Assembly (NCBI RefSeq): GCF_013280595.1
Contig: NZ_JAAATY010000013.1
Span: 124,001 to 188,000 of the forward strand
Direction: 5' to 3'
Origin: Kibdelosporangium persicum
GTDB taxonomy: Bacteria; Actinomycetota; Actinomycetes; Mycobacteriales; Pseudonocardiaceae
DNA length: 64,000 nt
Shown here: positions 10,771 through 32,937 of the stretch, one piece after another
How positions within the stretch are numbered: position 1 is the first letter of the stretch
How the letters are laid out: every line of letters starts with the position of its first letter
Made by a program: the position numbers and the translations under genes
The notes under the pieces: generated by a model
What the model was told of the DNA's origin: nothing
The model's database searches: none
What the model saw: only the letters and a program-made list of their open reading frames with translations

Positions 10771-12243
10771 TCACGGCGCCGAGAACGTGGCGCTCAGGGC
10801 CCGGCGGTCGATCTTGCCGTTCTGGTTCAGCGGGAACGTGTCGAACGCGGTGACGGTCCGGGGCATCATGTACGGCGGCAGGTGGCGGCTCAGGTCAGCG
10901 AGGAGTGCCTCCTCGTCCTGCGGGGTGCCGGTGTAGGCCGCCACCAGTTCCGTTTCGTCCTTGCCGGGCAGGGCGAGGACGACCGCGTCGGTGATTCCGG
11001 GTCGCTGCCGCAGGACTGCTTCTATCTCGCCCAGTTCGACGCGGTAGCCGCGGATCTTCACCTGATGGTCGATTCGGCCCAGGTGCACCAGTTGCCCGTC
11101 GTGGTAGGTCACGCGGTCGCCGGTGCGGTACCAGTGGGCGGCGGTCAGTTCGCCCGTGCCGTCGTAGATTTCCTTGTTCTCGGTGAGGAAACGGCCGATG
11201 TTGTCCGCCGGGTCGAGATAGCCCGGGAAGCGCTGGGGGCCGCGCAGGCACAGTTCGCCGTCGTCCAGGACGAGGTGTTCGAGCTGGGGGTACGGCGTGC
11301 CGATCGGAACTGTGCCGTTCGGGGGTTGGGGCCAGTTGTCCGGCGGCAGGCGGTATTCGGTGCAGGTCACGGTCATCTCGGTAGGGCCGTAGATGTTCTC
11401 CAGCACGCTGGCGGGCGCTGCCGTGTGCCACGCCGAGGCCTGCTGGAGCGTCAGGGGCTCGCCGCAGAACATGCTCCACCGCAACGACGGCATGCTGCCG
11501 GGCTTCAGCGCCTTCATCCGGTGCGCCAAGGAGATCACCGAAGGGACTGAGTTCCAGTGCGTGATCCGGTTGCGGTTGACGAAACGCACCGGCATCACCA
11601 GATCGCCGCGAGTCGGCACGACCAACGTCGCCCCGGAGCCCCAGGCGATGAACATGTCGTACACCGACGGGTCGAACGTCAGTTCGAAGAACTGGGAGAA
11701 CCGGGCTCCTGGACCGGCTTCGTACCGCGGAATCACGTGCGACAGGTACGAGCTGACGTTCCGGTGCGCGATGCGGACGCCCTTCGGTGCGCCGGTCGAC
11801 CCTGACGTGAACAGGATGTACGCGATGTCGTCCGGCCCCGCCGCGGATGCGGGAAGCGCGGGCGGAGGGCCGTCGAACGACCGCGGAGTCACCGTGGGAA
11901 CCGGCAGCTCGGCCGAGTCGGCCAAGGCGACGTCCAGTGCGGACATCCGGGCGATGGTGGCGTTGCGGGCGGGCGGGAACGACGGGTTCAGCGGAACCAC
12001 GGTCGCGCCGAGCCGTTGGATCGCCAGGTAACCGGCATACGCCAGAACGCTGCGAGCCGCCAGCAGGCCGACCCGGCGCGGAACACCGCCACAGTGCGCG
12101 ATCAACTGGCCGGCGACGTGCGCGGCCAGATCGGACAGCTCCCGGTACGTCAGCCGGGCCGGCCCGATCTCCAAGGCGATCCGGTCCGGGCCGTCGGCCG
12201 CGGACGCGGCGAACCAGTCGTACATGGTCTGCACCGTGATCAC
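10771..12243 (-). CDS. Stand-alone amino acid adenylation enzyme (second adenylating enzyme of the starter module)
   Basis: The 490-residue protein is a free-standing NRPS-type A domain with [14 protein letters not shown] (A3), [14 protein letters not shown] (A4), [11 protein letters not shown] (A5), YRTGDRV (A7), [15 protein letters not shown] (A8) and [11 protein letters not shown] (A10). No carrier or condensation domain is attached, so it must load a separate carrier or, as VinM does in vicenistatin biosynthesis, aminoacylate a carrier-bound amine. By analogy it may add a protecting amino acid to the beta-alanyl-type starter. The amino acid is not deduced. GTG 12243 overlaps the upstream stop (GTGA), which makes it the last gene of the starter operon. 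Confidence 0.85.
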
Positions 12244-13157
12244 ACCTCCGCGGCCAGGTCGGCGCACAGTTTCTCGGTCGCCGTGATGAGCCGGTCGAAC
12301 GCGGGCACGACCAGATCCGGCCGTGGCTTGCCGCGTTGCGCGGACTTGGCGGCGAAACGCAAGGACCGTGCCAGTTTGCTCCACGCCGCCAGCACGGGTT
12401 CCACCAGCGAGACGGACGTGAGTCCCCGTTCGGTGAACGCGGTCAGCCGGAACCGCTGGTGCACTCCGGCTGCCCACAGGTCGTCCACAGCGTCGACAAC
12501 GGCCTCGTCGTCCACGGTCAGGCGGTCGGCGAGCAGACGCAGCGTCGGCAAAGCGTCAACAGACCAGTCCTCAGTGGATGGTGCGGACGCGGGAACCTTG
12601 GCGAGCCACCGGTACGAGGTGTCCGGAGGCAGCGGGACCCGAGTACCCAAGGCGTGCGCGTCCCGGTTCCGGACGGCCACAGGAAGTCCAGGCATCGGCT
12701 TCATCGCACGCCGCAGTTGGGCGTCGGTCAGCCAACCCTCGAACGGGTACTGCCTGCCGTGCATGGTCATCGTGCTGAACCTGTCCACCACGAGCCACGT
12801 GTCGTTCCGCCGAGCACGCACCAGAATCCAATGAGGACCGTGCTGATCCTCGGGATACGGCGACCACGGCAGATGTGCGGCATCAGTGACCACGAGCACC
12901 TGGCCCGATCGAGCCAGTTCCCCGGCCACCAGCTCCCGGGCCACGTCCCAGGACGCGCTTGCCCGGTAAGCCAGCTCCTGGTCCTCGCGGTCCTGATCCA
13001 TCCGGGTGTGCTGGGAGAAGACCAGCCGGGAGCCGGGGGCGGCACGAACCCCGAGCCGGATCGCCGAGGCGATGTGCCACTGGAGGTCGGCGACCTCCCG
13101 GGACAGGTACTCGGCGAGGTTCGTGGTGTAGCAGCTCAACTCGGCCGACGGGGTCAT
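12240..13157 (-). CDS. BtrH-N-like papain-fold transferase/hydrolase, single domain
   Basis: The 305-residue protein resembles the N-terminal domain family of butirosin BtrH. Cys9 lies in [11 protein letters not shown], His109 follows [15 protein letters not shown], and Asp125 lies in WLVVDRF, giving a Cys-His-Asp triad in the expected order and spacing. BtrH moves an aminoacyl group from an ACP to an amine. The same motifs occur in the fusion protein at 18775, so this operon encodes two paralogues. The ATG at 13157 overlaps the phosphopantetheinyl transferase stop (ATGA). Transfer or removal of an acyl group on the starter amine is inferred from context only. Confidence 0.65.
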
Positions 13158-13651
13158 GGGCCTTCCTTCCGGTACGCGTAGCTGACCGGGATCGGCGACC
13201 GGCCGCGCAGGCTCACCCAGTGGCACGACCGCCACGTGCCCGAACCGCGTCCCGGTGGAACGTCGATGTCCCACGGCCTGCCGGCCAGTCCTTCCCCGGT
13301 GGTCTTCACCAGTGCCTCCCGGACCGTCCACGCCCACGCCCGTTCCGGCGAGCCGTCCGGGAGTTGCACGTCGATCCCGACGGCCCTGTCGACGCCGACG
13401 CACACGGCGAGGGCTCCCCGGTCATGTGACACGCTGATGCCCAGCCGTGGGTGTTCACGCAGGTACGGCTTGCCGCCGGGCTGGGTCACCACCTCGTCGC
13501 CGGCAGCCGCGGGAGCCACCGCGCGCAGCAGCGTCCGGAGCAAGGCCCTGCCTGCCAGGGACTCCCGCTCCCGAGATCCGGGCATACGGATCGGTGCGGT
13601 GGCGATCCACATCCCGTCGGCGACCTGGGTTATCCGAGTGCGGCGGAACAT
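13154..13651 (-). CDS. Sfp-type 4'-phosphopantetheinyl transferase
   Basis: The 165-residue protein has the Sfp-family signatures ISVSHDRGALAVCVG, VGIDVQL and WTVREALVKTTGEGL. It should attach phosphopantetheine from CoA to the serines of the pathway carrier proteins. It is short for Sfp-type enzymes (usually 220 residues or more), and the second metal-binding acid of the GIDxE motif is Gln here. The gene overlaps its neighbours on both sides (22 bp and 4 bp), so it is dedicated to this operon, which encodes two carrier domains. Confidence 0.8.
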   Translation of the reverse strand: MFRRTRITQVADGMWIATAPIRMPGSRERESLAGRALLRTLLRAVAPAAAGDEVVTQPGGKPYLREHPRLGISVSHDRGALAVCVGVDRAVGIDVQLPDGSPERAWAWTVREALVKTTGEGLAGRPWDIDVPPGRGSGTWRSCHWVSLRGRSPIPVSYAYRKEGP

Positions 13652-14715
13652 TCCGGGTCCGTCCCGTTCAGGATCGCCACGGCATCATCGGCCACAGTGG
13701 ACAGGACGATCTCGGTGGCACCGCCGCCGATGCCGAACAGTCCGGCCTGTGCACGAAGCTGTTGGATGCCGCCCGCCGTGAAGCCGTCCGCGCCTTGCAG
13801 GTGCGCGCATTCGGCGAGGACGTAGTCGACCGTGCTCGCGGCCGATGCCTTCACCAACGCGGCCGCGCCGGCGTCATGCTCGCGCACGATCCGGTCACCG
13901 ACATCGTTGGCCAGCGACTCCAGTTGCCGCAGACGAACGAGGCATTCTGCGAACCGTTGCCGAACACTTTCCAGATGCCACAGGGTGTTCTCGCCGTAGG
14001 AACGCGCCGAGAGCCGGTGCAGGGTGTCGGTCAGAACCCGGCGGCACAACGCGACCGACCACAGAGCACCGGCCAGGCGCTCAGTGCCGATGTGGCGGGC
14101 GAACGTGGCCAGACCACGGCCGGGACGGCCGACGACCTCCCCGGACCGCACGCGGTCGAACCGCACGTGACCGGTGCCGGAGCCGTCGAACAACGTGGTG
14201 TCCGCCGGGGTCACGGTCACGCCTGGTGCCGACGCCGGGACCAGCACCCACGTGAAGCTGGCGAAGTGCCGTCCCGGCTTGTGCCGGGCCAGCACCAGGA
14301 ACGCGTCGGCCGTGGTCGCGTTGGTGATCCAGCGTTTCTCGCCGGTGACCTCGATGCCTTCGCCGGTGATCCGAACCTCGGTGCGCAACGCGGTCAGGTC
14401 CGACCCGGCGCCGACGTCTGTGGCCGCCAGGGCGATGGTGTCGATGCCTGCCAGAAGCCTCCGGAACACCTCGACGGGCCCTGTGGCCAGGACGGGCAAC
14501 ACGGTCGCCAGTTGCACGCACACGGAAAGCGTTGTGCCGATGGAGAAGCGGCGGTCGACTGCGGCGAGGAGAGCCCCGAGCCGGGCCGGGGCGACCGGAT
14601 GGGCCCACTCGATCAACCCGGCCCGGCCGAGAGCGCGCCACACTTCGCGCCCTGACGCGTCGGACGGCAGGTCCAGTGCCTCGGTCCACGTGGGTGCCAC
14701 CAGCAGGTCAGACAA
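13630..14715 (-). CDS. Acyl-CoA-dehydrogenase-fold flavoprotein lacking the usual catalytic Glu
   Basis: The 361-residue protein has the layout of acyl-CoA dehydrogenases: helical N-terminus, ALAATDVGAGSDLTALRT and EKRWITNATTADAFLV in the beta domain, and a C-terminal helical bundle. Near the C-terminus, where the family usually has YEGT with the base Glu, the sequence is GIGGGATEIVL, so that Glu is replaced by Gly. It may use a different base or act as a flavin oxidase or monooxygenase. It overlaps the second flavoprotein gene by 8 bp. The likely substrate is the aminoacyl thioester on the small ACP. Confidence 0.75.
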   Translation of the reverse strand: MSDLLVAPTWTEALDLPSDASGREVWRALGRAGLIEWAHPVAPARLGALLAAVDRRFSIGTTLSVCVQLATVLPVLATGPVEVFRRLLAGIDTIALAATDVGAGSDLTALRTEVRITGEGIEVTGEKRWITNATTADAFLVLARHKPGRHFASFTWVLVPASAPGVTVTPADTTLFDGSGTGHVRFDRVRSGEVVGRPGRGLATFARHIGTERLAGALWSVALCRRVLTDTLHRLSARSYGENTLWHLESVRQRFAECLVRLRQLESLANDVGDRIVREHDAGAAALVKASAASTVDYVLAECAHLQGADGFTAGGIQQLRAQAGLFGIGGGATEIVLSTVADDAVAILNGTDPECSAALG

Positions 14716-15856
14716 AACGGACCTCCGGGTCGAGCAGGGCCAGCCTGCCGTCCGCCAGGTGCAGCCGGTCGTTGCTGTAGTTCAACGCGGCCGACCGCAG
14801 GTCACGCAGGGCCAGTTCCAGCCGGGTCGGCGAGTCCCTGAGGTAGCCGTGCCGCAGGCCGACCGCGTCCACCAGGTCGTTCACCGCCGCATGGCACTGT
14901 TCAGCCGCGGTGATCTTCAACGCGTTCAGCAGCAACTGGTGGTTGGGCACGGACAGATCCGGCGAGGCGAAGACGGTCTGTTCGGCCCGGCGCAGCAAGG
15001 CGTGCACACCGTCAAGGCGTTGGCGTGCGGTGGAAAGCCGGGTCAGCAACAGTTCGGACCTGATGTCGAACCGGTCGCGTCCTTCCTTGCCGCGGATCAT
15101 CCGCAGCACGCGGGACAGCGCGCCCGCTGCGGTGCCGAGCCACGCGGCGGACCAGCCGAGATGGGCCAGCGGTGCGAAGATCGTGGTGGCGATGTCCGGG
15201 AACGTGCCGTGCTCACCGATCACCTGCTCCGCGGGAACGCTGCCGACGAGTTTCATCGGCACGCTGTGGCTGGCCCGCATGCCCATCGGCTGCCAGTCGC
15301 CGGACGCGGTGACCTCCAACTGGTCCCGGTCGGCGTAGACCAGCGAGACCTGGTTGGGCGAGCCGGCGTCCGGGCTGCGCATCGTGATCAGGAATCCGTC
15401 CGCGTACACACCGCCGGTCACGATCGGCGCGAAGCGGTCGATGGCCAGCGTCGTGTCGCCGCTGAGCGCTGACTCGGCGCTGAGCAGGTGCCCGCCCTTG
15501 CCTGCCTCGGTGGTCACCGAAGCCAGGTAGATCCTTCCCTGCCCGATGCGTTCGAGCAGGTCGGTGCGGAACGGCTCGCGTGCGTGCCGGACCACCGCGG
15601 CCACCTGCTGGCAGTGCATCACGAAGATCATCGCCAGTGACATGTCGGTACGGCCGAGCCTGATCCCCAGATCGACCATGTCGGTCACGGTGCCGCCCAG
15701 GCCGCCGTGCCCGGCGGGCACCAGCAGGCCGAGCAACTTCGTGCGGCGCAACTCGTCCAGTGCTTCGACCGGGAATGTCGCGTCCCGGTCGGTCGTGGCC
15801 ACGTGCCGTTCGGCGGTCCTGACAACCTGGTCGGCGAGTTCGCTCAGGGTGGTCAT
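14708..15856 (-). CDS. Acyl-CoA-dehydrogenase-like flavoprotein, second copy
   Basis: The 382-residue protein has LLGLLVPAGHGGLGGTVTDM, GRTDMSLAMIFVMHCQQ and a C-terminal bundle with RDLRSAALNYSNDRLHL. The C-terminal part looks more like the DszC or flavin-dependent monooxygenase branch of the fold than like true dehydrogenases, and no YEGT-type catalytic Glu is seen. It is only distantly related to its neighbour, so the two are not a simple duplication. The ATG at 15856 overlaps the ACP stop codon. Oxidation of the carrier-bound starter is inferred. Confidence 0.7.
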   Translation of the reverse strand: MTTLSELADQVVRTAERHVATTDRDATFPVEALDELRRTKLLGLLVPAGHGGLGGTVTDMVDLGIRLGRTDMSLAMIFVMHCQQVAAVVRHAREPFRTDLLERIGQGRIYLASVTTEAGKGGHLLSAESALSGDTTLAIDRFAPIVTGGVYADGFLITMRSPDAGSPNQVSLVYADRDQLEVTASGDWQPMGMRASHSVPMKLVGSVPAEQVIGEHGTFPDIATTIFAPLAHLGWSAAWLGTAAGALSRVLRMIRGKEGRDRFDIRSELLLTRLSTARQRLDGVHALLRRAEQTVFASPDLSVPNHQLLLNALKITAAEQCHAAVNDLVDAVGLRHGYLRDSPTRLELALRDLRSAALNYSNDRLHLADGRLALLDPEVRFV

Positions 15857-16107
15857 GCGACGGCTCCGGTCTCGCCGGGCAGTTCCGCCGCGATCGCACG
15901 CCACAAGTTGCCCGCCGTGGCGAAAGTGGTGTCGCCCATCTCGTCGTCCGGCAGCATGACGCCGAAGGTGTCCTCGATGGCGAACAGCAGCTCGATGGAC
16001 TGCATTGAGTCCAGCCCGAGTGCCCGCAGGTCGGAGTCCTCGGTGATCGGTTTGCCGTTCGCGAACTTCAGGAACCTGGCCAGCAGTTCGGTGAAGCGCT
16101 CGTCCAT
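15853..16107 (-). CDS. Free-standing acyl carrier protein for the amino-acid starter
   Basis: The 84-residue protein has the carrier signature LGLDSMQSIELL with phosphopantetheine site Ser34, and an acidic helix after it. It is distinct from the PKS ACP at 31434 and sits between the PLP decarboxylase and the flavoproteins, 3 bp after the decarboxylase stop. In vicenistatin and butirosin the equivalent carriers (VinL, BtrI) hold the amino acid during adenylation and decarboxylation, and I infer the same use here. Confidence 0.9.
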   Translation of the reverse strand: MDERFTELLARFLKFANGKPITEDSDLRALGLDSMQSIELLFAIEDTFGVMLPDDEMGDTTFATAGNLWRAIAAELPGETGAVA

Positions 16108-16110
16108 GGG

Positions 16111-17301
16111 TCATGTCTCCGTTGGATTGCGGGTGAGGGCGAGACGGGAGATCCGGGGCGGTGCGTCGCCGTCGACGACCACTTCGATGGGCAGCGGGTG
16201 GCCGAGGAACGCGACGAGGCTCGCGTACAGGCCGTAAGCGCCGACGTTGGGAATCGCGAGCACGTCACCCGGTCGCACGTCAGGCACCGGGGCCGATCGC
16301 GCCCACAGGTCCAGCGGTGTGCACAGTGGACCGGCCAGCATCGCGTCGGTGAGATCATCGCCGGGCGACCGCACATCCGGGACCAGCGGCGGCAGCCGGC
16401 GCAGACCGGACATCCCGCCGAGGTGGTTGATCCCCGAGTCGAGGACCAGAACCCGTTTGCCGTGTGACTGCTTGACGTCCAGCACGGTCGTGTACAGCGT
16501 GCCCGCGGTGCCGGCCAGGTAACGGCCCGACTCGAACGCGATGGTCAGGTCGTGTCCACTGAGCATCCGGTCGAGTTCGTCCCGCAACCCGGTGAGGTCC
16601 ACCGCTTCGCCCGCGCGGGCGAAGGGGGCGCCGAACCCGCCGCCGAGATCGAGCATGTGCATGTCGGCGCCGTGCTTCCGCAGCACCTCGCACAGCCGGA
16701 CTCCGGTGTCCAGTGACCGCTGGAACTGGGCCACCAGATCGTCCACTGTGGTCAGATTGGTGCCCATGTAGAGGTGCAGCCCGGACACGGTCACGTGTGG
16801 CCTGCTCGCGAATTTCTCCGGCTCGGCGAGCACCCACGACGTGTCCGCGCCGAACTGGGACGCGACGCCGGTCATCGCCAGGCCCTGGCCCGGGCTTGGC
16901 TGGTCGTCGTTGATCCGCAGCAGGCAACGGACCTCGACGCCGTGGATGGCGGCGATGCGGTCGAGCTGGTCCAGACCGGTCACCGAGTCCACGGAGAACC
17001 TGCGGATGCCCGACGCGATGGCGTGCGCGAGATCCTGGTCGCGTTTGCCAGGGCCCGTGTAGAGCACCTCGTCGGGGGGCCAGCCCGCCGCGAGTGCCGC
17101 GTCGAGCTCACCCGCCGAGCACACTTCCGCGCGGGCGCCGCCTGTCCGGATCTCGGCGAGCAGATCCGGATGCGGGTTGGCTTTGAGCGAGTAGTACAGG
17201 ATGGACTTGGCAGGCAGGGCACGGACCAGGGCAGCCTGGTTCGCCCGGACCTGTGCCAGGTCGTAGACGTACGCCGGGGTTTCCGGCAGCTTGTCATCCA
17301 C
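16111..17301 (-). CDS. PLP-dependent decarboxylase, fold type III (VinO/BtrK-like)
   Basis: The 396-residue protein belongs to the diaminopimelate/ornithine decarboxylase group. Lys40 in YYSLKANPHP is the PLP lysine, MLDLGGGFGAPF binds the phosphate, and GPLCTPLD carries the inter-subunit Cys. In butirosin (BtrK) and vicenistatin (VinO), members of this group decarboxylate an amino acid held on an ACP through its side-chain carboxylate. Here it lies between its carrier protein and the aspartate-type ligase, so it should produce a beta-alanyl-type thioester. It overlaps the ligase gene by 8 bp. Confidence 0.88.
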   Translation of the reverse strand: MDDKLPETPAYVYDLAQVRANQAALVRALPAKSILYYSLKANPHPDLLAEIRTGGARAEVCSAGELDAALAAGWPPDEVLYTGPGKRDQDLAHAIASGIRRFSVDSVTGLDQLDRIAAIHGVEVRCLLRINDDQPSPGQGLAMTGVASQFGADTSWVLAEPEKFASRPHVTVSGLHLYMGTNLTTVDDLVAQFQRSLDTGVRLCEVLRKHGADMHMLDLGGGFGAPFARAGEAVDLTGLRDELDRMLSGHDLTIAFESGRYLAGTAGTLYTTVLDVKQSHGKRVLVLDSGINHLGGMSGLRRLPPLVPDVRSPGDDLTDAMLAGPLCTPLDLWARSAPVPDVRPGDVLAIPNVGAYGLYASLVAFLGHPLPIEVVVDGDAPPRISRLALTRNPTET

Positions 17302-18778
17302 CGTCGGCCTCCACGAGCATCGCGGCTACCGCCTTGCGGTCGACCTTCCCGTTGCCGTTCAAGGGAAGACGGTCGGCCACCAGGCAACGGCCGGGGATCT
17401 TGAACTCCTCGATCTCCTGGCGCATCCCGGCGAGGACGTGCTGCGGCGCGTGTTCGGTCACGACCACGAGCACCGCCGCGCGCCCATCCTTGGGCGGCAA
17501 CACAACGGCGGACTGCACGCCGGGGACCCGCCGCGCCGCCGCTTCCACCTCGGTCGCGCTGACCCGCAGCCCTCGTTCCTTGTAGATGTCGTCGAGCCTG
17601 CCGACGAAGTGCAGGTGCCCGGACTCGTCCAGCCAGCCGTGGTCCCCGGTGCGCAGTTCCGGGAACAGCCCGTCCCGGCGGACGAACCTCTGCGCGGTCA
17701 TTTCGGGCTGCCGCCAGTAGCCGGACATCACGTTCGGCCCGCGGACCGTGATCTCGCCGATCTCGCCCACGCCCAGGCGGTTTCCCGATCCGTCCACAGT
17801 GAACACTTCGGTACCGGGCAGCGGCACGCCGCACGTCCCAGGGTTCGCCAGATCGGCGTCCGGCGGGGCGATGGTGGCGCGTTTGCACTCCGTCAGGCCG
17901 AACATCAACTGCACCGACAGGCCCGGTATCGCGGCACGCAACGCCGACAACACCGAAGCGGGCATGGCGGCGCCGGTGTTGGTCAGCAGGCGCAGCGCGG
18001 GTTTCGGCCCTTTGTGCCTGGGCAACAGCCTGGCGAGCGCCTCGGCCACGGCAGGAACCGCGGGCAGCACCGTCGTGCCTGCCGTGACGAGCTTGCGGAC
18101 CAGGGAAGGACCGACTTCGGCCGGGCGGCCCAGCCAGATCCGGGCGCCCGACGCGGCACCGAGGAACAACTGGTACATGCCGTAGTCGAAGGACAGGGGG
18201 AGCGGGCAGTAGACGACGTCCGTTTCGGCGTAACGCAGCATCGACTGGATGGCGTTCACCGCGAAGACGACCGGCTGGTGCGTGCTGACCACGGCCTTCG
18301 GCGCGGACGTCGTTCCGGAGGTGTAGAGCAGGAACAACGGGTCCACGGCCACCGGCTCGGGCCCGGTGTCCACGTCCCCGCGCTCCCGCAACGCCGGGTC
18401 GGTGACCTCCTCGATGCTCGCCACCCGGATGCCTCTGGCCTTCGCGGGTGTGGTGAGCTCGCCGGAGATCAGGAGCACCGGTTCGCAGTCGTCGAGGACG
18501 TGCGCCAGCGACGGTTCGGTGGTCTGTTCGTGCAGCACCGAGATGACCGCACCGATCCTCGACGCCGCGTAGATCAGCACCGGGTGCAAGACCGACGACG
18601 GGCTCAGCAGCACAATCCGGTCGCCCCGCCGTACACCCGTGTCCCGCAACCAGCGAGCTGTGCGGCGACTGGCCGCCGTCAACTCGCGATGCGTGAGGGT
18701 GGTGTCGCCGCCGGTGATCGCGGGACCGTCCGGCCAGCGCACGGCGGCCGTGTCGATGATGTGGTGCAGCAGAGTCAT
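17294..18778 (-). CDS. VinN-like aspartate-activating AMP ligase
   Basis: The 494-residue enzyme has LLYTSGTTSAPKAV (A3), FGLTECKRATI (A5), LRTGDHGWLD (A7), GRLDDIYKERGLRVS (A8) and LPLNGNGKVDRKA (A10). In the A5 region Lys299-Arg300 follows GLTEC. From memory, VinN uses a Lys-Arg pair at this place to bind an acidic amino acid that it activates through the beta-carboxylate. This fits the published finding that one azicemicin adenylating enzyme is aspartate-specific. The ATG at 18778 overlaps the upstream stop (ATGA) and replaces an earlier in-frame start that would lie inside the upstream gene. Confidence 0.82.
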   Translation of the reverse strand: MTLLHHIIDTAAVRWPDGPAITGGDTTLTHRELTAASRRTARWLRDTGVRRGDRIVLLSPSSVLHPVLIYAASRIGAVISVLHEQTTEPSLAHVLDDCEPVLLISGELTTPAKARGIRVASIEEVTDPALRERGDVDTGPEPVAVDPLFLLYTSGTTSAPKAVVSTHQPVVFAVNAIQSMLRYAETDVVYCPLPLSFDYGMYQLFLGAASGARIWLGRPAEVGPSLVRKLVTAGTTVLPAVPAVAEALARLLPRHKGPKPALRLLTNTGAAMPASVLSALRAAIPGLSVQLMFGLTECKRATIAPPDADLANPGTCGVPLPGTEVFTVDGSGNRLGVGEIGEITVRGPNVMSGYWRQPEMTAQRFVRRDGLFPELRTGDHGWLDESGHLHFVGRLDDIYKERGLRVSATEVEAAARRVPGVQSAVVLPPKDGRAAVLVVVTEHAPQHVLAGMRQEIEEFKIPGRCLVADRLPLNGNGKVDRKAVAAMLVEADGG

Positions 18779-19893
18779 GCGCGAACTCCGGTCTGCTTGG
18801 CGATCCGGCACAGGTCGTCGACCCGGTGCAGGTTCTCGGGGACCAGGTCGGCGGGATCGAGCTCGACGCCGAGCTCGTCCTCCAGCCGCTCGAGGATCTC
18901 CACCAGCCGGAACGAGCTGAACCGCGGCAACGCGGTGAACTCAAGGCCGTTGAGCAGCTTGGCCTCGGTCACGCCGAGCACCGCTCCGGCGATCGCGGCG
19001 ACCGCGCGGCGAAGCGCCTCGCCGATCAACGGGCCACTGTGGACATCCTGGCCGGTGGACGGTTCGGCGAACACCACACGGTCGGCGGCCAGCATCTCGC
19101 CGAGCCTGCTCACCAGCCATGGCGGCTCGTCCCGGCCACGCAGAACCCGTCGATACGCCAGGTAGGTCTGTTCGGACAACGAATCCCAGGCACGCAGGTG
19201 ACCGGCGAGATCGTCGGCGGGACGGCCGTTCAGTCGCCGGAACTTGGCGTGCAGCTTGCGTGACCGCGTCAGCAGCCACGTCTCCAACGTCAGCCGCTCC
19301 ACGGCTCGGGTCCGGTTCGGATTCCGTTCGTACGCGGCGAGGTAACCGTCGACGGCGACGTCGTTGATCGACGGTGTGAGACGGGGCAGCCCGGTGAAGG
19401 TGGGCTCGAAGTGGAACACCTCGGCCTTGGGCAGGCACAGCTGTTCCGGGCTGAGCTTCCACTTGCCGGGAGTGGCCGTGCCCCAAGGCGTTTCGTTCGC
19501 GTACGCGTCGACGACCGTGCAGTCCGGCGCCAGCAGGAAACTGTGCTCCATGTGCTGATGCCCGTGATACGGCGCCCACGGCAGTTCGTAGGCGTCAGCG
19601 ACCACGTAAACGAGGTCACGGCCGCTCGACCACTCGAACAACTCCGGTCCGGTGACGGTGGCCCGGTCTCGTGCCACCAGGCCGAGCACGTCCTCGGCCG
19701 TGGCGATCTGCTCGGCCAGGGTCGGCTCGACGGTGGGCAGGTCACCGGGCCGGTGCCGCCAGTGGAAGTTCAGCTGCGCGCCCAGGTTCAGGTGGGCGTC
19801 CGGGCCGTAGTGGTGGTCGGCGAGCACCGCGAGGTTGGTCTGCACGCAGTCCATCAGGTCGGCGTGCACGGACTCCGGCGACGGTGTGGCCAT
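18775..19893 (-). CDS. BtrH-N-like domain fused to a C-terminal acyl carrier domain
   Basis: The 372-residue protein has two parts. Residues 1-290 repeat the BtrH-like pattern: Cys16 in MDCVQTNLAVL, ELPWAPYHGHQHMEHSF with His117, and Asp129 in TVVDAYAN. Residues about 300-372 look like a carrier domain, with LPRFSSFRLVEILERLEDEL in place of the usual GLDSLxxVEL, leaving Ser327 as the candidate phosphopantetheine site. A transferase carrying its own acyl carrier would be unusual. It is translated first after the methyltransferase, with AGGAGAG ahead of the ATG, and is coupled to the aspartate ligase. Either a self-loading aminoacyl transferase or a docking partner for the decarboxylase set is possible. 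Confidence 0.65.
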   Translation of the reverse strand: MATPSPESVHADLMDCVQTNLAVLADHHYGPDAHLNLGAQLNFHWRHRPGDLPTVEPTLAEQIATAEDVLGLVARDRATVTGPELFEWSSGRDLVYVVADAYELPWAPYHGHQHMEHSFLLAPDCTVVDAYANETPWGTATPGKWKLSPEQLCLPKAEVFHFEPTFTGLPRLTPSINDVAVDGYLAAYERNPNRTRAVERLTLETWLLTRSRKLHAKFRRLNGRPADDLAGHLRAWDSLSEQTYLAYRRVLRGRDEPPWLVSRLGEMLAADRVVFAEPSTGQDVHSGPLIGEALRRAVAAIAGAVLGVTEAKLLNGLEFTALPRFSSFRLVEILERLEDELGVELDPADLVPENLHRVDDLCRIAKQTGVRA

Positions 19894-19902
19894 TGTTCTC
19901 TC

Positions 19903-20931
19903 CTAACTCCGGGTGGCTGGGACGGCTTCGATCAGGTGGTCGTCTGACTCGCCCACCCGGACCGCGTGCCGCGGCTGGAAACCAGCCGCCGTGAGTAAGG
20001 CGTGGAACTCGGCCTCGGTGCGTTCCATGCCGCCGAAGTTGACCAGCATGTTGATGTCCATCAGGTAGTCGTCCGGCGGGGACTGCGGATCGACGTGCGC
20101 GGGCAGGACCGACTCGACGAGCAGCACCCGGCCGTGACCGGGCACCGCGCGCCGGCAGTTGGCCAGGATCGCGGCCGCCCGTTTGTCGTCCCAGTCGTGC
20201 AGGATGTTCTTGAGCAGGTAGACGTCGCCGTCGCCGGGTACTTCGGCGAAGAAGTCGCCGGAGCGGATCTCGCACCGGTCCGCGACGCCTGCCGCGGTGA
20301 GGACTTCGTGGGCTTGGGCGACGCCGTCCTCGCTGTCGTACACGATCCCGCGGAGATCCGGTTCCGCCGCGAGGATCGAGGCGAGCAACGTCCCGTTCCC
20401 GCCGCCGACGTCGACCACGGTGCCGAACCGGGAGAAGTCGTACTGCTTGGTGATCGCGTCGGCGATCTCCTGGGTGCCTTCCCCCATCGACGCGTGGAAC
20501 ATCGCGGACAGCTCGGGGTCGGCCGCGATGTGGGTGAAGAAGTCCGTGCCGTGGATGCGGGGGAACGCCGACTGTCCAGTGCGGACACTCCAGTCCAGGT
20601 CACGCCAGCCGGACAGGATCGTCTCGTCCGTGCTCACCCGCACGATGGCGTACAGTGAGCCGGGAACGTCCCGGCGCAGCAATGACCCCGCCGCGGTCAG
20701 TTTGTAGTGTCCTGCCGTGGTCTCGGTCGTGAGGCCGATCGCGGTCAATGCCCGCAGCAGACGGCGCAGCGACGGCTCGTGCACACCGATGTCCGCTGCC
20801 AGGTCCACTGTGGAGCGGGTGTGGTCCGCGAGCCGCTCCGGCAGGTCGAGCCGGATGGCCGCGACGACCAATGAGGTGCTCGTGTAGCCCCACACCAGCC
20901 GCATCAGCGCCTGCCCTGGATCCTGCTGCAT
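19903..20931 (-). CDS. O-methyltransferase, plant-COMT-like (Methyltransf_2) family
   Basis: The 342-residue protein has the dimerisation and winged-helix N-terminus (LRRLLRALTAIGLTTE) and a SAM domain with VVDVGGGNGTLLASIL, SGDFFAEVPGDGDVYLL and KNILHDWDD, where the His is the usual catalytic base. Members methylate phenolic hydroxyls of aromatic polyketides, although a few methylate nitrogen. It is the first gene of the starter operon, separated by 9 bp from the next. A methyl group on the aromatic core or on the aziridine nitrogen would both fit azicemicin-type products. Confidence 0.88.
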   Translation of the reverse strand: MQQDPGQALMRLVWGYTSTSLVVAAIRLDLPERLADHTRSTVDLAADIGVHEPSLRRLLRALTAIGLTTETTAGHYKLTAAGSLLRRDVPGSLYAIVRVSTDETILSGWRDLDWSVRTGQSAFPRIHGTDFFTHIAADPELSAMFHASMGEGTQEIADAITKQYDFSRFGTVVDVGGGNGTLLASILAAEPDLRGIVYDSEDGVAQAHEVLTAAGVADRCEIRSGDFFAEVPGDGDVYLLKNILHDWDDKRAAAILANCRRAVPGHGRVLLVESVLPAHVDPQSPPDDYLMDINMLVNFGGMERTEAEFHALLTAAGFQPRHAVRVGESDDHLIEAVPATRS

Positions 20932-21117
20932 CTCCTGGCCTCCCTTGGCGATCCGCCCGTGTCAGCCAGCTTGGGCGGGGTACCGAAAAATGTTCAACAC
21001 CCGGTGCGCCAGGAAAGTGACAGGACTGTGTGAGACGTTGGTCAACACTACAAATGTCCTGGGATTGCCCGGCCGTGCGCTCGACGCGGGCGAAACGGCT
21101 CGGTTAGAAACGATGAC
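20932..21117. promoter_or_regulatory. Divergent promoter region between starter operon and cyclase operon
   Basis: These 186 bases separate two divergent operons. TCAACAC occurs twice (20994-21000 and 21042-21048), CTTGGCG at 20944-20950 matches a heptamer seen in the array before the P450 gene, and TGTCA and TGACA motifs lie at 20960 and about 21018. No clear -35/-10 pair was settled. Confidence 0.5.
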
Positions 21118-21915
21118 ATGACCGGCAATCCAACGACCACGCTGAACACCGAGGTCCCGCATTCCGCGAGGGTGTACGACTACATGCTCGGCGGGACGGA
21201 CAACTTCGCGGCCGACCGCAAGGTCGGCGACGACCTGATCGCCGCCATGCCGTGGATCCGCGGCGTGGTCCGGGCGAACCGCGCGTTCCTGCAGCGGGCG
21301 GTGCGGTTCGCGGCCGAGTCGGGCGTCGGGCAGTTCCTCGACCTCGGCGCGGGCCTGCCGACCTCGCCGAGCACGCACGAGGTGGCCAGGCAGGTGATCC
21401 CGGACGCCCGGGTGGCCTATGTGGACACCGATCCGATTCTGCTCGACCACGCCCGTAAGCTGCTGGGCGGCGGCACCGGCGGCACCGCGGTCGTGCGGGC
21501 CGACGTGCGTGACCCGGCCGCCACGCTGAGCCTGCCGGAGCTGCGGCGGACCATCGACTTCGACAAGCCGGTCGCCGTGATGCTGATCGGCCTGATGCAC
21601 CTGTTCCACGACGCCGACGACCCGTACGGCATGGTCGCGAAGTACCTCGCCGCGGTGCCGTCCGGCAGCATGCTGCTGTTCTCCCAGTTCACCGCGGACT
21701 TCACCCCGGAGACCGCCGGGGAGTTGCAGCGGATCTCCAGCGAGGCGGGCGAACCGGTGGCGATGCGCACCGGTGCCGAGATCGCCCGGTTCTTCGACGG
21801 CCTGGACCTGGTCGAGCCCGGTCTGGTGCAGATGCCGCACTGGCGTCCGGACGGCGAGCCGCCTGCCGGCTCGGACCACGTTTTCCTGTACGCGGGTGTC
21901 GCCCGCAAGCCCTGA
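21118..21915 (+). CDS. SAM-dependent methyltransferase, DUF574/Methyltransf_19 family
   Basis: The 265-residue protein begins with the family motif HSARVYDYMLGGTDNFAADR and has FLDLGAGLPTSPSTHEVARQ and VAYVDTDPILLDHARKLL. It is a clear paralogue of the protein at 9521. It heads the plus-strand operon with the TcmI-type cyclase and the acyltransferase, so it is more likely than its paralogue to act in the pathway, for example as the N-methyltransferase of an azicemicin-type aziridine. No good ribosome binding site precedes the ATG. Confidence 0.8.
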   Translation: MTGNPTTTLNTEVPHSARVYDYMLGGTDNFAADRKVGDDLIAAMPWIRGVVRANRAFLQRAVRFAAESGVGQFLDLGAGLPTSPSTHEVARQVIPDARVAYVDTDPILLDHARKLLGGGTGGTAVVRADVRDPAATLSLPELRRTIDFDKPVAVMLIGLMHLFHDADDPYGMVAKYLAAVPSGSMLLFSQFTADFTPETAGELQRISSEAGEPVAMRTGAEIARFFDGLDLVEPGLVQMPHWRPDGEPPAGSDHVFLYAGVARKP

Positions 21916-21930
21916 GAGGAAAGGAATCGG

Positions 21931-22257
21931 ATGTACACCACACTGATCGTCGGGCGGATGAACCCGGACGAGAAGGAGCTGATCGCCGGTCACTTCGCGG
22001 AGTTCGACAAGAGCGAGATGCCGCACCTGATGGGCACCCGGCGGCGGGAGCTGTTCAACTACAACGACCTGTACTTCCACCTGCAGCAGTTCGACGACGA
22101 CCACGACTCGGGCAAGGCCATCCGCAACGCGATGGACCACCCGCTGTTCGTCGACATCAGCAACAAGCTGGTCGCGATGATCGACCCCTACGACCCGAAG
22201 ACGTGGAAGCAGCCGACCGACGCGATCGCCAAGGCGTTCTACCGCTGGCAGCCCTGA
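21931..22257 (+). CDS. TcmI-type polyketide cyclase
   Basis: The 108-residue protein matches the small ferredoxin-like polyketide cyclases in length and pattern: MYTTLIVGRMNPDEK, LMGTRRRELFNYNDLYFHL and a C-terminus KAFYRWQP. Members close later rings of poly-beta-keto chains. With the aromatase/cyclase at 29677 it should set the fold of the aromatic core. AAAGGAA precedes the ATG, and the acyltransferase gene starts 3 bp after its stop. Confidence 0.92.
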   Translation: MYTTLIVGRMNPDEKELIAGHFAEFDKSEMPHLMGTRRRELFNYNDLYFHLQQFDDDHDSGKAIRNAMDHPLFVDISNKLVAMIDPYDPKTWKQPTDAIAKAFYRWQP

Positions 22258-22259
22258 GC

Positions 22260-23228
22260 ATGACCAGCCCGATCGCTCTGCTGCTGCCTGGGCAGGGCGC
22301 GCAGTACCCCGGCATGGCCGTGGAACTCTACGGCGCCGAACCGGTCTTCACCGCGGCCATGGACGAGTTCTTCTCGCTCATGGGCGCGGTGGGGGCCGGA
22401 CTGCGGGCCGACTGGCTCAGCGATCACCCCGTGGTCCCTCTCGACGACGCGTCGCGCGCGCAGCCGTTGCTCTTCGCCATCGGCTACGCGCTCGGCCGCG
22501 CGCTGATCGCGCGCGGCATCGTCCCTTCTGTCCTGATCGGACACAGCGTCGGCGAGCTGGCCGCGGCCGCCCTGGCGGGGGTGTACGACCCGCCGGGCGC
22601 GGCCCGGATCATCCTGGCCAGGTACGAGGCGATGGCGACCGCACCAGCCGGTGGCCTGCTCGCGGTCTCGGCCGCGGCCGGGGACGTGGAACGCCACCTG
22701 GACGCCCGGAGCCACGAAGGCGGAGTGGGCATCGCGGCGATCAACGCGCCGGGGATCACGGTGCTGGCAGGCCCGGAAGCCGAACTCGTCCGGATCAGGG
22801 AAGTGCTGGCGGGCAACGGGATCAGCGCCATGCGGGTCGGTTCCCGGCAGCCCTTCCACTGCCCGGCGGTGGCCGCGGCGGGTGAGAAGTTCGAGGCCGG
22901 CTTCGCCGGCGTGACACTGCGCCCGCCGCGAATCCCGATCGTCTCGACCCGCACCGCCCGGGTGGTCACGCCGGAAGAAGCCGTCACACCGGGTTTCTGG
23001 GCACGGCAACTCGACGCGCCGGTGCTGTTCTGGCCGGCCCTGGACACCCTGCTCAGCGCGGGGGCGTACACCGTGGTGGAAGCGGGCCCAGGAAAAGGAC
23101 TGTCCATGCTGGCCAGGAAACACCCGGCCGTCCGTGCCAAGCGAAGCACGGTGGTCTCACTCTCGCCGTCACGTGCCAGCGGCACCCTCACAGCATGGCA
23201 TGCCGGTCTCGACCACCTGACCACGTAA
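22260..23228 (+). CDS. Stand-alone acyltransferase (MAT-like fold, VinK-type role)
   Basis: The 322-residue protein has the acyltransferase signatures LLLPGQGAQYPGMA, IGHSVGEL with nucleophile Ser96, and RQPFHCPAV with His200. Most type II PKS clusters have no dedicated acyltransferase because they borrow FabD. In vicenistatin, VinK of this fold transfers the protected aminoacyl starter from the small ACP to the PKS ACP. The presence of this gene beside a full VinN/O/L-like set suggests the same task, though malonyl loading cannot be excluded. The ATG at 22260 is used because the cyclase stops at 22257. Confidence 0.82.
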   Translation: MTSPIALLLPGQGAQYPGMAVELYGAEPVFTAAMDEFFSLMGAVGAGLRADWLSDHPVVPLDDASRAQPLLFAIGYALGRALIARGIVPSVLIGHSVGELAAAALAGVYDPPGAARIILARYEAMATAPAGGLLAVSAAAGDVERHLDARSHEGGVGIAAINAPGITVLAGPEAELVRIREVLAGNGISAMRVGSRQPFHCPAVAAAGEKFEAGFAGVTLRPPRIPIVSTRTARVVTPEEAVTPGFWARQLDAPVLFWPALDTLLSAGAYTVVEAGPGKGLSMLARKHPAVRAKRSTVVSLSPSRASGTLTAWHAGLDHLTT

Positions 23229-24380: not shown

Positions 24381-25205
24381 CTACTCCTCCTCCAGCAACG
24401 CGCGGACGGCCGGGACGACCTCGGCGGCGAACATGTCGATCTGCCTGGCGTGATCGTCCCGCGGCCAGTAGACGAATCCGTTCATCCCGCACTTCTCGGC
24501 AAGCTGCACGATCTGGTCCGTCCACTGCGCCACCGAGCCGTGGAACGGCTCGGCCGAGGGCGGACCGATGATCCCGGCGAGGTTGTAGACCTTCCTGATC
24601 GATCCGGGCGCGCGGCCGGCGAGCGTGGCGGCGGTGTCGATCCGTGCGGAGGCCCGTGGCAGCCGGTCGAGTCCCAGGTGCAGCAAGGACGGCTGCCAGC
24701 CGTCCGCCTTGGTGCCGACCAGATCGAGCATCCGGGGCCCGTTCGCGCCCAGCCAGATCTCCAGCCGGGGGCTCGGGCGCGGGCCGAAGTGCTCGGACGT
24801 CCACAGCGAACGGATCAGGTCGATCGCGTCGCTCAGCGCGTCCACCGCTTCGGCCGGGGTGCGGCGCGGACCGCCCATCGACACGATGTCGTCCCAGAAC
24901 GCGCCCGCGCCAAGCCCGAGACGCAGCCTGCCGCCGGTGAGGCAGTCCAGGCTGGCCGCGGACTTGGCGAGCATCGCGGGCGGCCGCAACGGCAGATTGG
25001 CCACGGTGGGGACAAAAGCGACGCGGCTCGTTCCGGCCGCGAGGTACGTCAACAGTGTCCACGTGTCGTAGTACGCCGGACGGTACGGGTGGTCCTGAAT
25101 GGTCACCAGGTCGAGACCGGCCTGGTCGATCCGGGCCGCCAGCCGCAGGGACTCGTGCGGATCGGCATGGGTGGGATTGACGTTCGCGCCGAAGATCAGG
25201 TCCAC
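24381..25205 (-). CDS. Luciferase-like flavin-dependent monooxygenase
   Basis: The 274-residue protein begins DLIFGANVNPTHADPHES and has the luciferase-like motifs TIQDHPYRPAYYDTW, FVPTVANLPLRPPAML and CLTGGRLRLGLGAGAFWDD. The GTG at 25205 is chosen because GAGGAG lies six bases upstream. It follows the FMN reductase by 10 bp and directly abuts the shortened FAD gene. With the reductase it forms a likely two-component flavin monooxygenase for oxidation of the polyketide. F420 use cannot be excluded. Confidence 0.82.
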   Translation of the reverse strand: MDLIFGANVNPTHADPHESLRLAARIDQAGLDLVTIQDHPYRPAYYDTWTLLTYLAAGTSRVAFVPTVANLPLRPPAMLAKSAASLDCLTGGRLRLGLGAGAFWDDIVSMGGPRRTPAEAVDALSDAIDLIRSLWTSEHFGPRPSPRLEIWLGANGPRMLDLVGTKADGWQPSLLHLGLDRLPRASARIDTAATLAGRAPGSIRKVYNLAGIIGPPSAEPFHGSVAQWTDQIVQLAEKCGMNGFVYWPRDDHARQIDMFAAEVVPAVRALLEEE

Positions 25206-25215
25206 GTCGCACTCC

Positions 25216-25794
25216 TCAGGTCTGGTACGGGCGCGCGGCCCGTGCTTCGCGCAGTGCCGTGGCCCACCAGATGAGCTGGTCCAGCATGCCTTTGGCGGCG
25301 GCGTCGCATCCGTCACGGTCGCGCGGCACCCCGGCTTCGTCGAAGCAGCTGCCGTGGAAGCTCACGACGTCCCTGATCGGCACCGCGTGCAGTTCGCCGA
25401 AGACCAGCCGGAGCTGCTCGACGGCCCGCAGCCCGCCGGATCGCCCGCCGTAGGACACAAATCCGACCGGTTTGGCGTGCCATTCGGTGAAGTGCCAGTC
25501 GATGGCGTTCTTCAGCACCGCCGGGAAACTCCGGTTGTACTCCGGTGTCACGATGACAAACGCGTCGGCGGCGGCCAGCCGTGGCGTGATGCCGCCGAGT
25601 GCGTGGGCGTCGGCGGTCTCCGGCGGCCACGTCGGACGGGCCATGCTCAGCGGTGGCCCGGTGGTCAGGTCCACGACGTCGAGGCACACGTCGTCGCGGT
25701 GGCCCGCTTCACCGACGAACCACTTGGCGACGACCGGGCCGGTGCGGCTGCCCGGCACGCTGCCGACGATCACGGCCAGCCGGATGGGATGCAT
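25216..25794 (-). CDS. NAD(P)H-dependent FMN reductase
   Basis: The 192-residue flavodoxin-fold protein has VIVGSVPGSRTGPVVAKW (FMN phosphate loop), VIVTPEYNRSFPAVLKNAID and GFVSYGGRSGG, the standard marks of the NADPH-dependent FMN reductase family. It most likely supplies reduced FMN to the luciferase-like monooxygenase encoded immediately downstream. It lies 3 bp after the carboxylase epsilon gene. Confidence 0.88.
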   Translation of the reverse strand: MHPIRLAVIVGSVPGSRTGPVVAKWFVGEAGHRDDVCLDVVDLTTGPPLSMARPTWPPETADAHALGGITPRLAAADAFVIVTPEYNRSFPAVLKNAIDWHFTEWHAKPVGFVSYGGRSGGLRAVEQLRLVFGELHAVPIRDVVSFHGSCFDEAGVPRDRDGCDAAAKGMLDQLIWWATALREARAARPYQT

Positions 25795-31433: not shown

Positions 31434-31694
31434 TCATGCCACGCTGAGCAGGCGTGCGTTGACGATGTCGAGCAGTGCGCGTGGGGTGCTGGCCTCGTTG
31501 AGCGCGTCGTCGCCGAGCGAGATCCCGTACTCGCGTTCGATCCGGCTGGTGGTCTCGAAGATGGCCAGCGACTCGTAGCCGAGCTCCTCGAACTCCGTGT
31601 CGAGGATGTGGCTGTCGAGGTCCACTCCCTCGTCCTCACCGGCGCACTCGCGCAGGATCGACTTGAGGTCCTCGATGGTGAACTTCTCCGGCAT
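31434..31694 (-). CDS. Type II PKS acyl carrier protein
   Basis: The 86-residue protein has the aromatic-PKS carrier motif ELGYESLAIFET with phosphopantetheine site Ser42, and it follows the KS/CLF genes as expected for the third part of the minimal PKS. It carries the growing polyketide chain. Confidence 0.95.
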   Translation of the reverse strand: MPEKFTIEDLKSILRECAGEDEGVDLDSHILDTEFEELGYESLAIFETTSRIEREYGISLGDDALNEASTPRALLDIVNARLLSVA

Positions 31695-31725: not shown

Positions 31726-32937
31726 CTACCGGGCCGATCGCACGACCACGGCCGAGTTGAAACCACCGTGGCCACGGGCGACCACGAGCGCGGTGCGCAC
31801 CGGGCCGCCGCGCGTTCCGGTCACCAGATCCAGCTGGTAGTCCGGGTATGGATCACTGTGGACAGTCGGTGGCAGCACGCTGTCCCGGATGGCCAGCAGT
31901 GCCGCGGCCACGTCCAGCGGTGCCGCGCCCGCGTACAGCCGTCCGGTCATCGTCTTCGGCGCGGTGACAGGCACACCGCGCGGACCGAACACCTCGTTGA
32001 TCGCGTCGGCTTCCTGACGGTCGAGTTCCGGCACGGCGACCGCGTCGGCGAACACCACGTCGACGTCGCCCGGCGTGACGCCCGCGTCGTCGAGGGCAAG
32101 CGTGATCGCGCGCTTCAGGGCCGGTGGCCGTCCGGTGCCCGGTCGAGGGTCGAAAGTGGACGCGTAGCCGGCGATCCGGCCGTAGATCTCGGCTCCGCGT
32201 TGCCGTGCGGCGGCTTCGTCTTCGAGCACGAACAACGCGCCACCTTCACCTGGCACGTAACCCGAAGCCGACGCGTCGAACGGCAGATACGCCCGGTCAG
32301 GGTCGGTGGCCGTGCTGATCTGGCCGCTCGACAGATGCGAAATCCAGCCGTACGAGGAAAGTGAACCGTCCACACCGCCGGTGACGGCCAACGGCGTGCC
32401 CTTGCGGATCTGCCGTCGTGCCTGGCCGATCGCGTCCAGCCCGCCCGCGTGGTCACTGACCAGCGCGGCGCTCGGGCCCTGCATGCCGTTGCGGATCGAG
32501 ATCTGCCCGGTGTTCACCGCGTAGAACCAGGCGAAGGACTGGTACGCGCTGACGTACTTGCTTCCCTTGCTCCACAACGCCTGCAGTTCACGTTCACCGA
32601 ACTCGAACCCGCCGGCCGAGCTGGCTGTCACGACACTCATGTCGTACCCGTCCAGCTGGTCGGGCTTGACCCCGGCGTCGGCCAGGGCCCAGTCCGCGGT
32701 CACCAACGCGAGCCGTGTCATGTGGTCGGTCTGTGGCAACAGCCTGCTGGGCAGGTGTTCCTTGGCCACGAAGCCGGGCACCTCACCGGCCAGCTGAGCG
32801 GGATAGCCGCTCGGGTCGAAGCGGGTGAGGCGGCCGATGCCGCTGGTGCCGTCCAGCGTCGCGGCCCAGTAGTCCTTGGTGCCCAGGCCGTTCGGCGCCG
32901 TGACGCCGATCCCGGTCACCACCGCCGACGGGGTCAT
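31726..32937 (-). CDS. Chain-length factor (KS-beta) with His in place of the usual Gln
   Basis: The 403-residue protein is a ketosynthase homologue without the active-site Cys. Where the family normally reads SEQAGGLD, this protein reads SDHAGGLD, so the position of the characteristic Gln is His163. The C-terminal GHGGFNSAVVV is standard. CLF pairs with KS-alpha and sets chain length, and the Gln has been linked to malonyl decarboxylation and priming. Translation is coupled to KS-alpha by an ATGA overlap. Confidence 0.95.
   Translation of the reverse strand: MTPSAVVTGIGVTAPNGLGTKDYWAATLDGTSGIGRLTRFDPSGYPAQLAGEVPGFVAKEHLPSRLLPQTDHMTRLALVTADWALADAGVKPDQLDGYDMSVVTASSAGGFEFGERELQALWSKGSKYVSAYQSFAWFYAVNTGQISIRNGMQGPSAALVSDHAGGLDAIGQARRQIRKGTPLAVTGGVDGSLSSYGWISHLSSGQISTATDPDRAYLPFDASASGYVPGEGGALFVLEDEAAARQRGAEIYGRIAGYASTFDPRPGTGRPPALKRAITLALDDAGVTPGDVDVVFADAVAVPELDRQEADAINEVFGPRGVPVTAPKTMTGRLYAGAAPLDVAAALLAIRDSVLPPTVHSDPYPDYQLDLVTGTRGGPVRTALVVARGHGGFNSAVVVRSAR

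Follow-up and report, generated by a model that had tools for sequence, protein, structure and literature searches.

A nine-gene cassette beside an aromatic type II polyketide synthase in Kibdelosporangium persicum probably makes an oxidised, perhaps aziridine-type, starter from aspartate

The stretch of DNA analysed here, called the window below, comprises 64,000 nucleotides (bases 124001-188000 of contig 13) of the 10.35 Mb genome of Kibdelosporangium persicum. It contains a block of nine genes, here called the cassette, next to an aromatic type II polyketide synthase (PKS). We read the two together as an azicemicin-type cluster in which the PKS is primed with an aspartate-derived, oxidised starter, and we put the probability of this reading at about 60%. 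The nine genes are probably a kit which converts aspartate to the oxidised, perhaps aziridine-type, starter of an aromatic antibiotic; our best guess for the starter is an azicemicin-like aziridine. What we observe directly is which genes are present and in what order, how they are coupled, to what they are related and which residues they conserve; the enzymatic steps are predicted.

The cassette is read on the minus strand from 19893 to 10771. The order is U372 (18775-19893), the stand-alone adenylating enzyme A1 (17294-18778), the pyridoxal phosphate (PLP) decarboxylase DC (16111-17301), a free acyl carrier protein (ACP; 15853-16107), the flavoproteins ACD1 (14708-15856) and ACD2 (13630-14715), a short phosphopantetheinyl transferase (PPTase)-like protein (13154-13651), a BtrH-like protein (12240-13157) and the second adenylating enzyme A2 (10771-12234, start uncertain within 12225-12267). 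Most of the genes overlap and the spacing is tight: from U372 to the BtrH-like gene the spacings are, in order, -4, -8, +3, -4, -8, -22 and -4 nt, and that between the BtrH-like gene and A2 is -28 to +14 nt depending on the start codon of A2. A methyltransferase gene on the same strand (PF00891, 19903-20931) ends 9 nt before U372. The same block is found in the same order in other actinomycete genomes, which argues that it is not a product of chance. The first-pass annotation of this DNA had described a ligase, a decarboxylase, a free ACP, a second adenylating enzyme and an acyltransferase, translated as one coupled operon with a PPTase and flavoproteins. All five are present as Pfam matches, and the spacings bear out the coupling from U372 to A2, but the acyltransferase gene lies outside it on the plus strand. 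The PPTase stands in part: Sfp-like motifs can be seen by eye, but the 4PPT_N match is below threshold (20.1 bits against a cut-off of 27), as is the AcpT match of 29.3 bits. The flavoproteins, two proteins of acyl-CoA dehydrogenase fold, had been undersold. U372 and the BtrH-like protein were absent from that annotation.

The case for aspartate begins with A1 (PF00501), a VinN-like enzyme and predicted aspartate ligase. In VinN, Lys330 and Arg331 serve the carboxylate. The top sequence match of A1 in the Protein Data Bank (PDB) is 3wvn (E 3.5e-102), an entry titled only 'Non-ribosomal peptide synthetase' which we take to be VinN. The TECKR motif is kept, and D198 (the Asp of the FD motif), K299 and R300 (the Lys-Arg after TEC) are found in 47/47 aligned sequences; the conservation counts for A1, DC, ACP, ACD1 and ACD2 include the window sequence. 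By homology and motif, activity aside, A1 would be a VinN-like ligase for a carboxy-bearing beta-amino acid. DC (PF02784/PF00278) is a predicted fold III PLP decarboxylase with BtrK structures as its top PDB matches (E 1.2e-53), and K40 and C327 are conserved in 47 of the 47 aligned sequences. The free ACP (PF00550, 46.7 bits) has the motif LGLDSM, the Ser of which is present in 81/81 sequences. A2 (PF00501) falls among the amino-acid adenylation proteins (TIGR01733, 324 bits), and its PDB sequence matches are, best first, linear gramicidin synthase A, 6akd and 8k4r, the last presumably VinM. The kinship with VinN and BtrK together with the conserved A1 motifs makes an aspartate logic of the set well supported at the level of sequence, and the earlier predictions of an aspartate-type ligase and a fold III decarboxylase are supported at that level.

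How the cassette is put together elsewhere was studied in a contig scan, in which 206 pattern matches led to 164 relatives and 80 kept, named loci. The presence/absence table holds 94 loci, with thresholds of our own choosing and with matches cut by contig ends scored as missing; duplicates (L027, L032 and L023/L024/L025 or L044) were removed from locus, conservation and tree counts, and L102 was omitted from alignment A3. All nine genes occur in 25 of the 94 loci and U372, A1, DC, ACP and ACD1 together in 47, a six-gene form without A1, DC and BtrH is found in 19, and ACD1 is alone in 10. The conserved heart of the cassette is U372, ACP, ACD1, ACD2 and, in most tabulated loci, A2; A1 and DC seem to be an optional supply of substrate. 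The recurrence of the block in many other loci agrees with the earlier suggestion that the unit is portable. With the host genome counted each time, U372 was found in 17 of 397 genomes at the level of the order, A1 in 40 of 390 at that of the family (E<=1e-120) and ACD1 in 2 of 396 at that of the phylum (E<=1e-90), and the cassette is therefore scattered rather than universal. The host genome itself has a second, diverged copy (L040, G000:C27:28000-47999) in which all nine genes were matched, ACD1 being about 58% identical; the ketosynthase and chain length factor (KS/CLF) found no match in this 20-kb stretch.

In the pathway which we propose, A1 would load aspartate via its side-chain carboxylate onto the free ACP, as the VinN kinship and the conserved residues suggest, and DC would strip the alpha-carboxylate on the carrier to give beta-alanyl-S-ACP, by analogy with BtrK and VinO. 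A2, U372 and the BtrH-like protein may acylate, transfer or deprotect the amine. ACD1 and ACD2 would oxidise the carrier-bound 3-aminopropanoyl group, most likely to aziridine-2-carbonyl or a related oxidised starter; this is the least certain of the steps. The starter would be passed to the type II ACP or KS, perhaps via the acyltransferase, and be extended and cyclised to an angucycline-like core. It could also be that the cassette follows plain vicenistatin/fluvirucin logic and delivers a protected beta-alanyl starter only, with ACD1 and ACD2 acting elsewhere in the pathway. In the logic given by excerpts of PMC11284099, an acid-specific ligase is followed by decarboxylation of the carrier-bound group and by another aminoacylation; VinK then does the transfer and VinJ, later on, the removal, and FlvN uses aspartate. 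A1, DC, ACP, A2 and an acyltransferase fit this enzyme logic. However, ACD1 and ACD2 stay with ACP and U372 also in loci without A1 and DC. Because they accompany ACP and U372 both with and without these two enzymes, they likely act on a carrier-bound group. Furthermore, the Pfam scan of the window genes, which covered 9.5-47 kb, gave no alpha/beta-hydrolase match of the VinJ type, VinJ homology itself not having been searched. We consider the plain logic unlikely.

The two flavoproteins are not alike. ACD1 is a predicted monooxygenase of acyl-CoA dehydrogenase fold (AlnG-like) for which the best matches, in sequence and fold alike, are TdsC/DszC, with KijD3 among the fold matches. M80, H81, Q83 and Q84 are found in 92/92 sequences, and His81 is aligned with a His of TdsC; the corresponding His of DszC we assume to be the catalytic one. 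A dehydrogenase role for ACD1 seems to us less likely: by our own motif alignment Ala231 (Ala in 89/92) stands where isovaleryl-CoA dehydrogenase has its Glu, and Tyr360, invariant in 17 rows, stands at the position of Glu376 in MCAD. This judgement is tempered by the closeness of the fold to ordinary acyl-CoA dehydrogenases. ACD2 is acyl-ACP-dehydrogenase-like; it matches the RedW, MbtN and PigA NCBIfam profiles, all below their cut-offs, and the MbtN structure with E 1.8e-18. Its Glu212, present in 76/76 sequences, is aligned with the Glu of isovaleryl-CoA dehydrogenase 4kto, and as far as sequence tells ACD2 resembles carrier-protein dehydrogenases such as RedW and MbtN. A flavin-reductase family (PF01613, assigned by scanning one member, in L117) occurs in 38/93 clustered loci, and a further PF01613 gene, scanned in L046, belongs to a family of its own with 2 loci.

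The ten loci with ACD1 and without the rest of the cassette have a flavoprotein which is 66-70% identical to that of the window. In the ACD1 tree (92 rows, midpoint root) they form one group with support 100/100, and together with the type II loci they fall within a 34-row group with support 97/87. Both Dap (diaminopropionate)-synthase-like families, PALP and ornithine-cyclodeaminase-like, are found in the flanks of 7/10, and a molybdopterin-oxidoreductase-type gene in those of 8/10. A Pfam scan of one of the ten, Streptomyces hirsutus L057, showed PALP, ornithine-cyclodeaminase-like, AMP-ligase, thioesterase, PAS, FMN reductase, major facilitator superfamily (MFS) and molybdopterin oxidoreductase matches. 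From this gene content we infer that the ten are alanosine-like. According to excerpts of PMC11705231 and PMC7347517, alanosine clusters have nitrate/nitrite reductases and the acyl-CoA-dehydrogenase-like AlnG/AlaD, S. hirsutus has an AlnG homologue, and N-hydroxylation of carrier-bound diaminopropionate by AlnG/AlaD is there a hypothesis only; L057 is presumably the locus of that homologue.

The monooxygenase likeness of ACD1 and its grouping with the alanosine-like (AlnG-type) proteins lead us to propose N-oxidation of carrier-bound beta-alanine. ACD1 would N-hydroxylate beta-alanyl-S-ACP in the way proposed for AlnG and diaminopropionyl, the papain-like U372 and BtrH-type proteins together with A2 would turn the N-oxygen into a leaving group, and ACD2 would take the alpha proton so that the alpha carbon could attack the nitrogen and close the aziridine. 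This route is offered as a hypothesis by analogy and is set apart from sulfate displacement. The cassette would then be a portable unit for the N-oxidation of 3-aminopropanoyl groups on a carrier, with aziridine closure on an electrophilic nitrogen, and would feed several other types of pathway; we regard this reading as a whole as tentative and rather improbable.

U372 matched no Pfam family. Its AF2 (AlphaFold2) model, with a mean pLDDT of 91, has a papain-like domain and a C-terminal carrier domain, and the C-terminus of its profile matches ACP (E 1.2e-6). The larger alignment has 41 rows, the first 40 of 67 selected relatives and the window sequence, with the Labedaea protein present twice (L024, L044). 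In the N-terminal domain C16 is conserved in 40/41 rows and H117 and D129 in 41/41, as is S327 of the carrier domain; all four are invariant in a 27-row alignment. The folds nearest to the model are AziU3/U2, CtaG and CcbD, with AziU3/U2 on top (E 2.5e-5), and the entry titles for CtaG C11A/H128A and CcbD C19S suggest that this type of fold may support cysteine chemistry. AziU3/U2 is functionally an aziridine synthase (PMC12559475, excerpt). We did not adopt the assignment of U372 as an AziU3-type aziridine synthase, for which the evidence is the fold alone; AziU3/U2 is absent from the best 60 of 110 matches with the U372 profile and from the 2 matches with the N-domain profile. The BtrH-like protein (PF14399, 21.5 bits, below cut-off) has a papain fold with C8, H108 and D124 invariant (21/21) and is remotely related to U372 (hhalign probability 98.5). 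PDB sequence searches gave 1 match with the BtrH profile and 2 with the U372 N-domain profile, all with E > 0.6.

A luciferase-like monooxygenase (PF00296, 24381-25316) and an FMN reductase (PF03358, 25216-25794), both on the minus strand, are encoded by overlapping genes, and butirosin has a comparable pair (BtrO/BtrV). One can imagine that this pair (24381-25794) hydroxylates beta-alanyl-S-ACP to isoserinyl-S-ACP and that the amine then displaces the activated hydroxyl to form the aziridine. The fold likeness of U372 to AziU3/U2 favours such a route, as AziU3/U2 closes sulfated amino alcohols to aziridines (PMC12559475, PMC9570651, excerpts). On the other hand, the luciferase gene lies outside the cassette in the relative loci examined, the stretch of Streptomyces sp. 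YIM 98790 has no luciferase match, and the Pfam scan of window genes showed no sulfotransferase. We find this route quite unlikely.

The PKS beside the cassette is, as had been claimed, that of an aromatic type II system. On the minus strand lie the genes for ketosynthase alpha (32934-34205; 92% and 84% identical in two other genomes), the chain length factor (PF00109/PF02801, 31726-32937; 88% and 81%) and the ACP (31434-31694), the last with a motif, LGYESL by eye, which departs from the usual LGxDSL. They are followed on the same strand by a ketoreductase (KR; PF00106, 30644-31417), a two-domain aromatase/cyclase (PF10604 and PF03364, 29677-30627), an FAD monooxygenase (PF01494, 28294-29670), a short-chain dehydrogenase (PF13561, 27530-28282), an acyl-CoA carboxyltransferase (PF01039, 25959-27581) and, beyond the reductase and luciferase genes, an FAD monooxygenase-like protein (PF01494, 23298-24380). 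A further FAD monooxygenase (PF01494, 34202-35698) and a transcriptional response regulator (PF00072/PF00486, 35934-36893) are also on the minus strand. The PKS core and tailoring genes occupy 23.3-36.9 kb, and genes matched in related clusters extend to about 44.6 kb. In this part lie an MFS transporter (PF07690, 38828-40345, plus strand) and an FAD monooxygenase (PF01494, 41725-43197, minus strand), both matched in two related clusters, and a cytochrome P450 (PF00067, 43369-44601, plus strand). KS, CLF, ACP, KR, aromatase/cyclase, cyclase and FAD oxygenases are all present, and such a set is angucycline-like. The window genes that were scanned gave no Pfam match to KSIII.

The stand-alone acyltransferase (PF00698, 22260-23228) follows genes for a SAM methyltransferase family protein (PF04672, 21118-21915) and a TcmI-type polyketide cyclase (PF04673, 21931-22257), all on the plus strand. 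It keeps GHSVGE and, by eye, has an Arg four residues before Met, presumably the arrangement of FabD. Instead of a VinK it could be a transferase for malonyl groups or for editing, and no VinK was recognised among the 51 PDB sequences matched with it. Relatives were found at E<=1e-75 in 21/390 family genomes. Six of these were also among the 40 genome handles searched for CLF (29 with a match at E<=1e-60; some genomes are doubled, e.g. G567 = G708). The acyltransferase is near a CLF gene in five of the six (G000, G567, G377, G568, G575) and is not in G132. We rejected it as a cassette gene because relatives adjoin type II PKSs away from the cassette and from A1 (G568, G575).

The cassette and a type II PKS were found together in the window, in Actinosynnema sp. 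ALI-1.44 and Labedaea rhizosphaerae with closely related PKSs (KS 92% and 84% identical to that of the window), and in Streptomyces sp. YIM 98790, where the PKS is more distant (KS 76%) and there is internal rearrangement. G460 is a possible fifth pair with a less similar PKS; the starts of A1 and CLF are about 24 kb apart, and about 11 kb separate the last cassette gene from the first PKS match. In the ACD1 tree the type II loci form one group of four with support 90/52, which is not strong, and its three Pseudonocardiaceae members group with 98/87. In this collection Actinosynnema sp. ALI-1.44 (L043/G567) and Kibdelosporangium aridum share one genus group.

Several observations weigh against an azicemicin-type cluster. 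MJ126-NF4, the azicemicin producer, is not named among the 80 kept loci, and the likeness to azicemicin is one of genus and gene content. When compared with the ACD1 model, ordinary acyl-CoA dehydrogenases reach scores almost as good as those of TdsC/DszC. The match of U372 to AziU3/U2 is at the level of the fold only (TM 0.39-0.47, rmsd 7.8-8.9 A, 15-16% identity), with CtaG and CcbD, which have other chemistry, close behind. The luciferase/FMN-reductase pair could be the oxidant instead. In G568 and G575 the acyltransferase relatives (50% and 54% identical) sit some 4-5 kb away from CLF, and A1 is placed on a different contig or at a distance of about 1.1 Mb. Finally, a type II KS or CLF of at least 55% identity was found within flanks of roughly 10 kb in 1/80 named loci, and the cassette is thus not proof of an aziridine polyketide.

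The other 79 named loci might indicate that cassette and PKS are adjacent but independent pathways and that the cassette makes a separate metabolite; the less similar PKS about 11 kb beyond the cassette in G460 would agree with this. The flanks are short, though, and two of the 79 have type II KS/CLF genes farther out. Loci beyond the 40 handles searched for CLF were seen within their own flanks, so that more cassette/PKS pairs may exist. Against independence, the association is kept across Kibdelosporangium, Labedaea and Streptomyces despite rearranged genes in between, and the four type II loci group together in the ACD1 tree, if not strongly. We regard two independent pathways as very improbable.

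Other loci show what else travels with the cassette. In L083 (5807-14469) the six-gene form follows a 460-aa protein without a Pfam match and an aminotransferase, the families of which are found in 25 and 23 loci. Micromonospora humi L117 (4461-15190) has the cassette with genes for myo-inositol-1-phosphate synthase, inositol monophosphatase and flavin reductase. In L048 a gene for a 2-hydroxyacid dehydrogenase (14502-15503; family in 6 loci) comes after the cassette and might encode a duplicate of a drug target. The contig of L103 bears the label Burkholderia multivorans WS-FJ9; in the ACD1 tree its cassette falls among sequences from actinomycetes and is possibly an assembly contamination.

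The locus provides candidate enzymes for the natural formation of aziridines on polyketides, and it makes visible which genes move as a unit and sets these apart from polyketide tailoring. If ACD1 is an N-oxygenase, one enzyme family would link aziridine, alanosine-type and other nitrogen-oxidised natural products, and U372 together with ACD1 would be a sequence handle for genome mining.

Among known systems the vicenistatin/fluvirucin module (VinN, VinO, VinL, VinM, VinK, VinJ) shares the VinN-like ligase, PLP decarboxylase, free ACP, second adenylating enzyme and an acyltransferase. The first-pass annotation had called the two sets the same; here, however, a pair of flavoproteins, a pair of papain-like proteins and another carrier domain are added, the acyltransferase is not specific to the module, and the PKS is aromatic type II instead of modular. 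The butirosin pathway (BtrI, BtrK, BtrH) to the AHBA side chain is similar in its BtrK-like decarboxylase acting with an ACP and, below threshold, in BtrH_N; it uses glutamate and makes an aminoglycoside side chain, whereas aspartate and a PKS starter are predicted here. L-alanosine (aln) clusters are linked through the ACD1 relatives of the ten alanosine-like loci, which are without the remaining cassette genes, and the substrate geometry of AlnG/AlaD would match a 3-aminopropanoyl thioester. The likeness to azinomycin AziU3/U2, the best fold match of U372, is one of fold. The azicemicin cluster has two adenylyltransferases, one of them aspartate-specific, a decarboxylase, an extra ACP and oxygenases, and its starter comes from aspartate. 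Two adenylating enzymes, a decarboxylase and an extra ACP, the set which defines it, are all found in the window. The likeness lies in genus, type II PKS and gene set. In a search of 8 genomes a 1119-bp stretch of the Kibdelosporangium aridum record L101 matched one genome of the host's genus (G562) at 100%, and the host genome is therefore in the same genus as K. aridum. The parallel is plausible, as the azicemicin producer is Kibdelosporangium sp. MJ126-NF4 (PMC4384478, excerpt).

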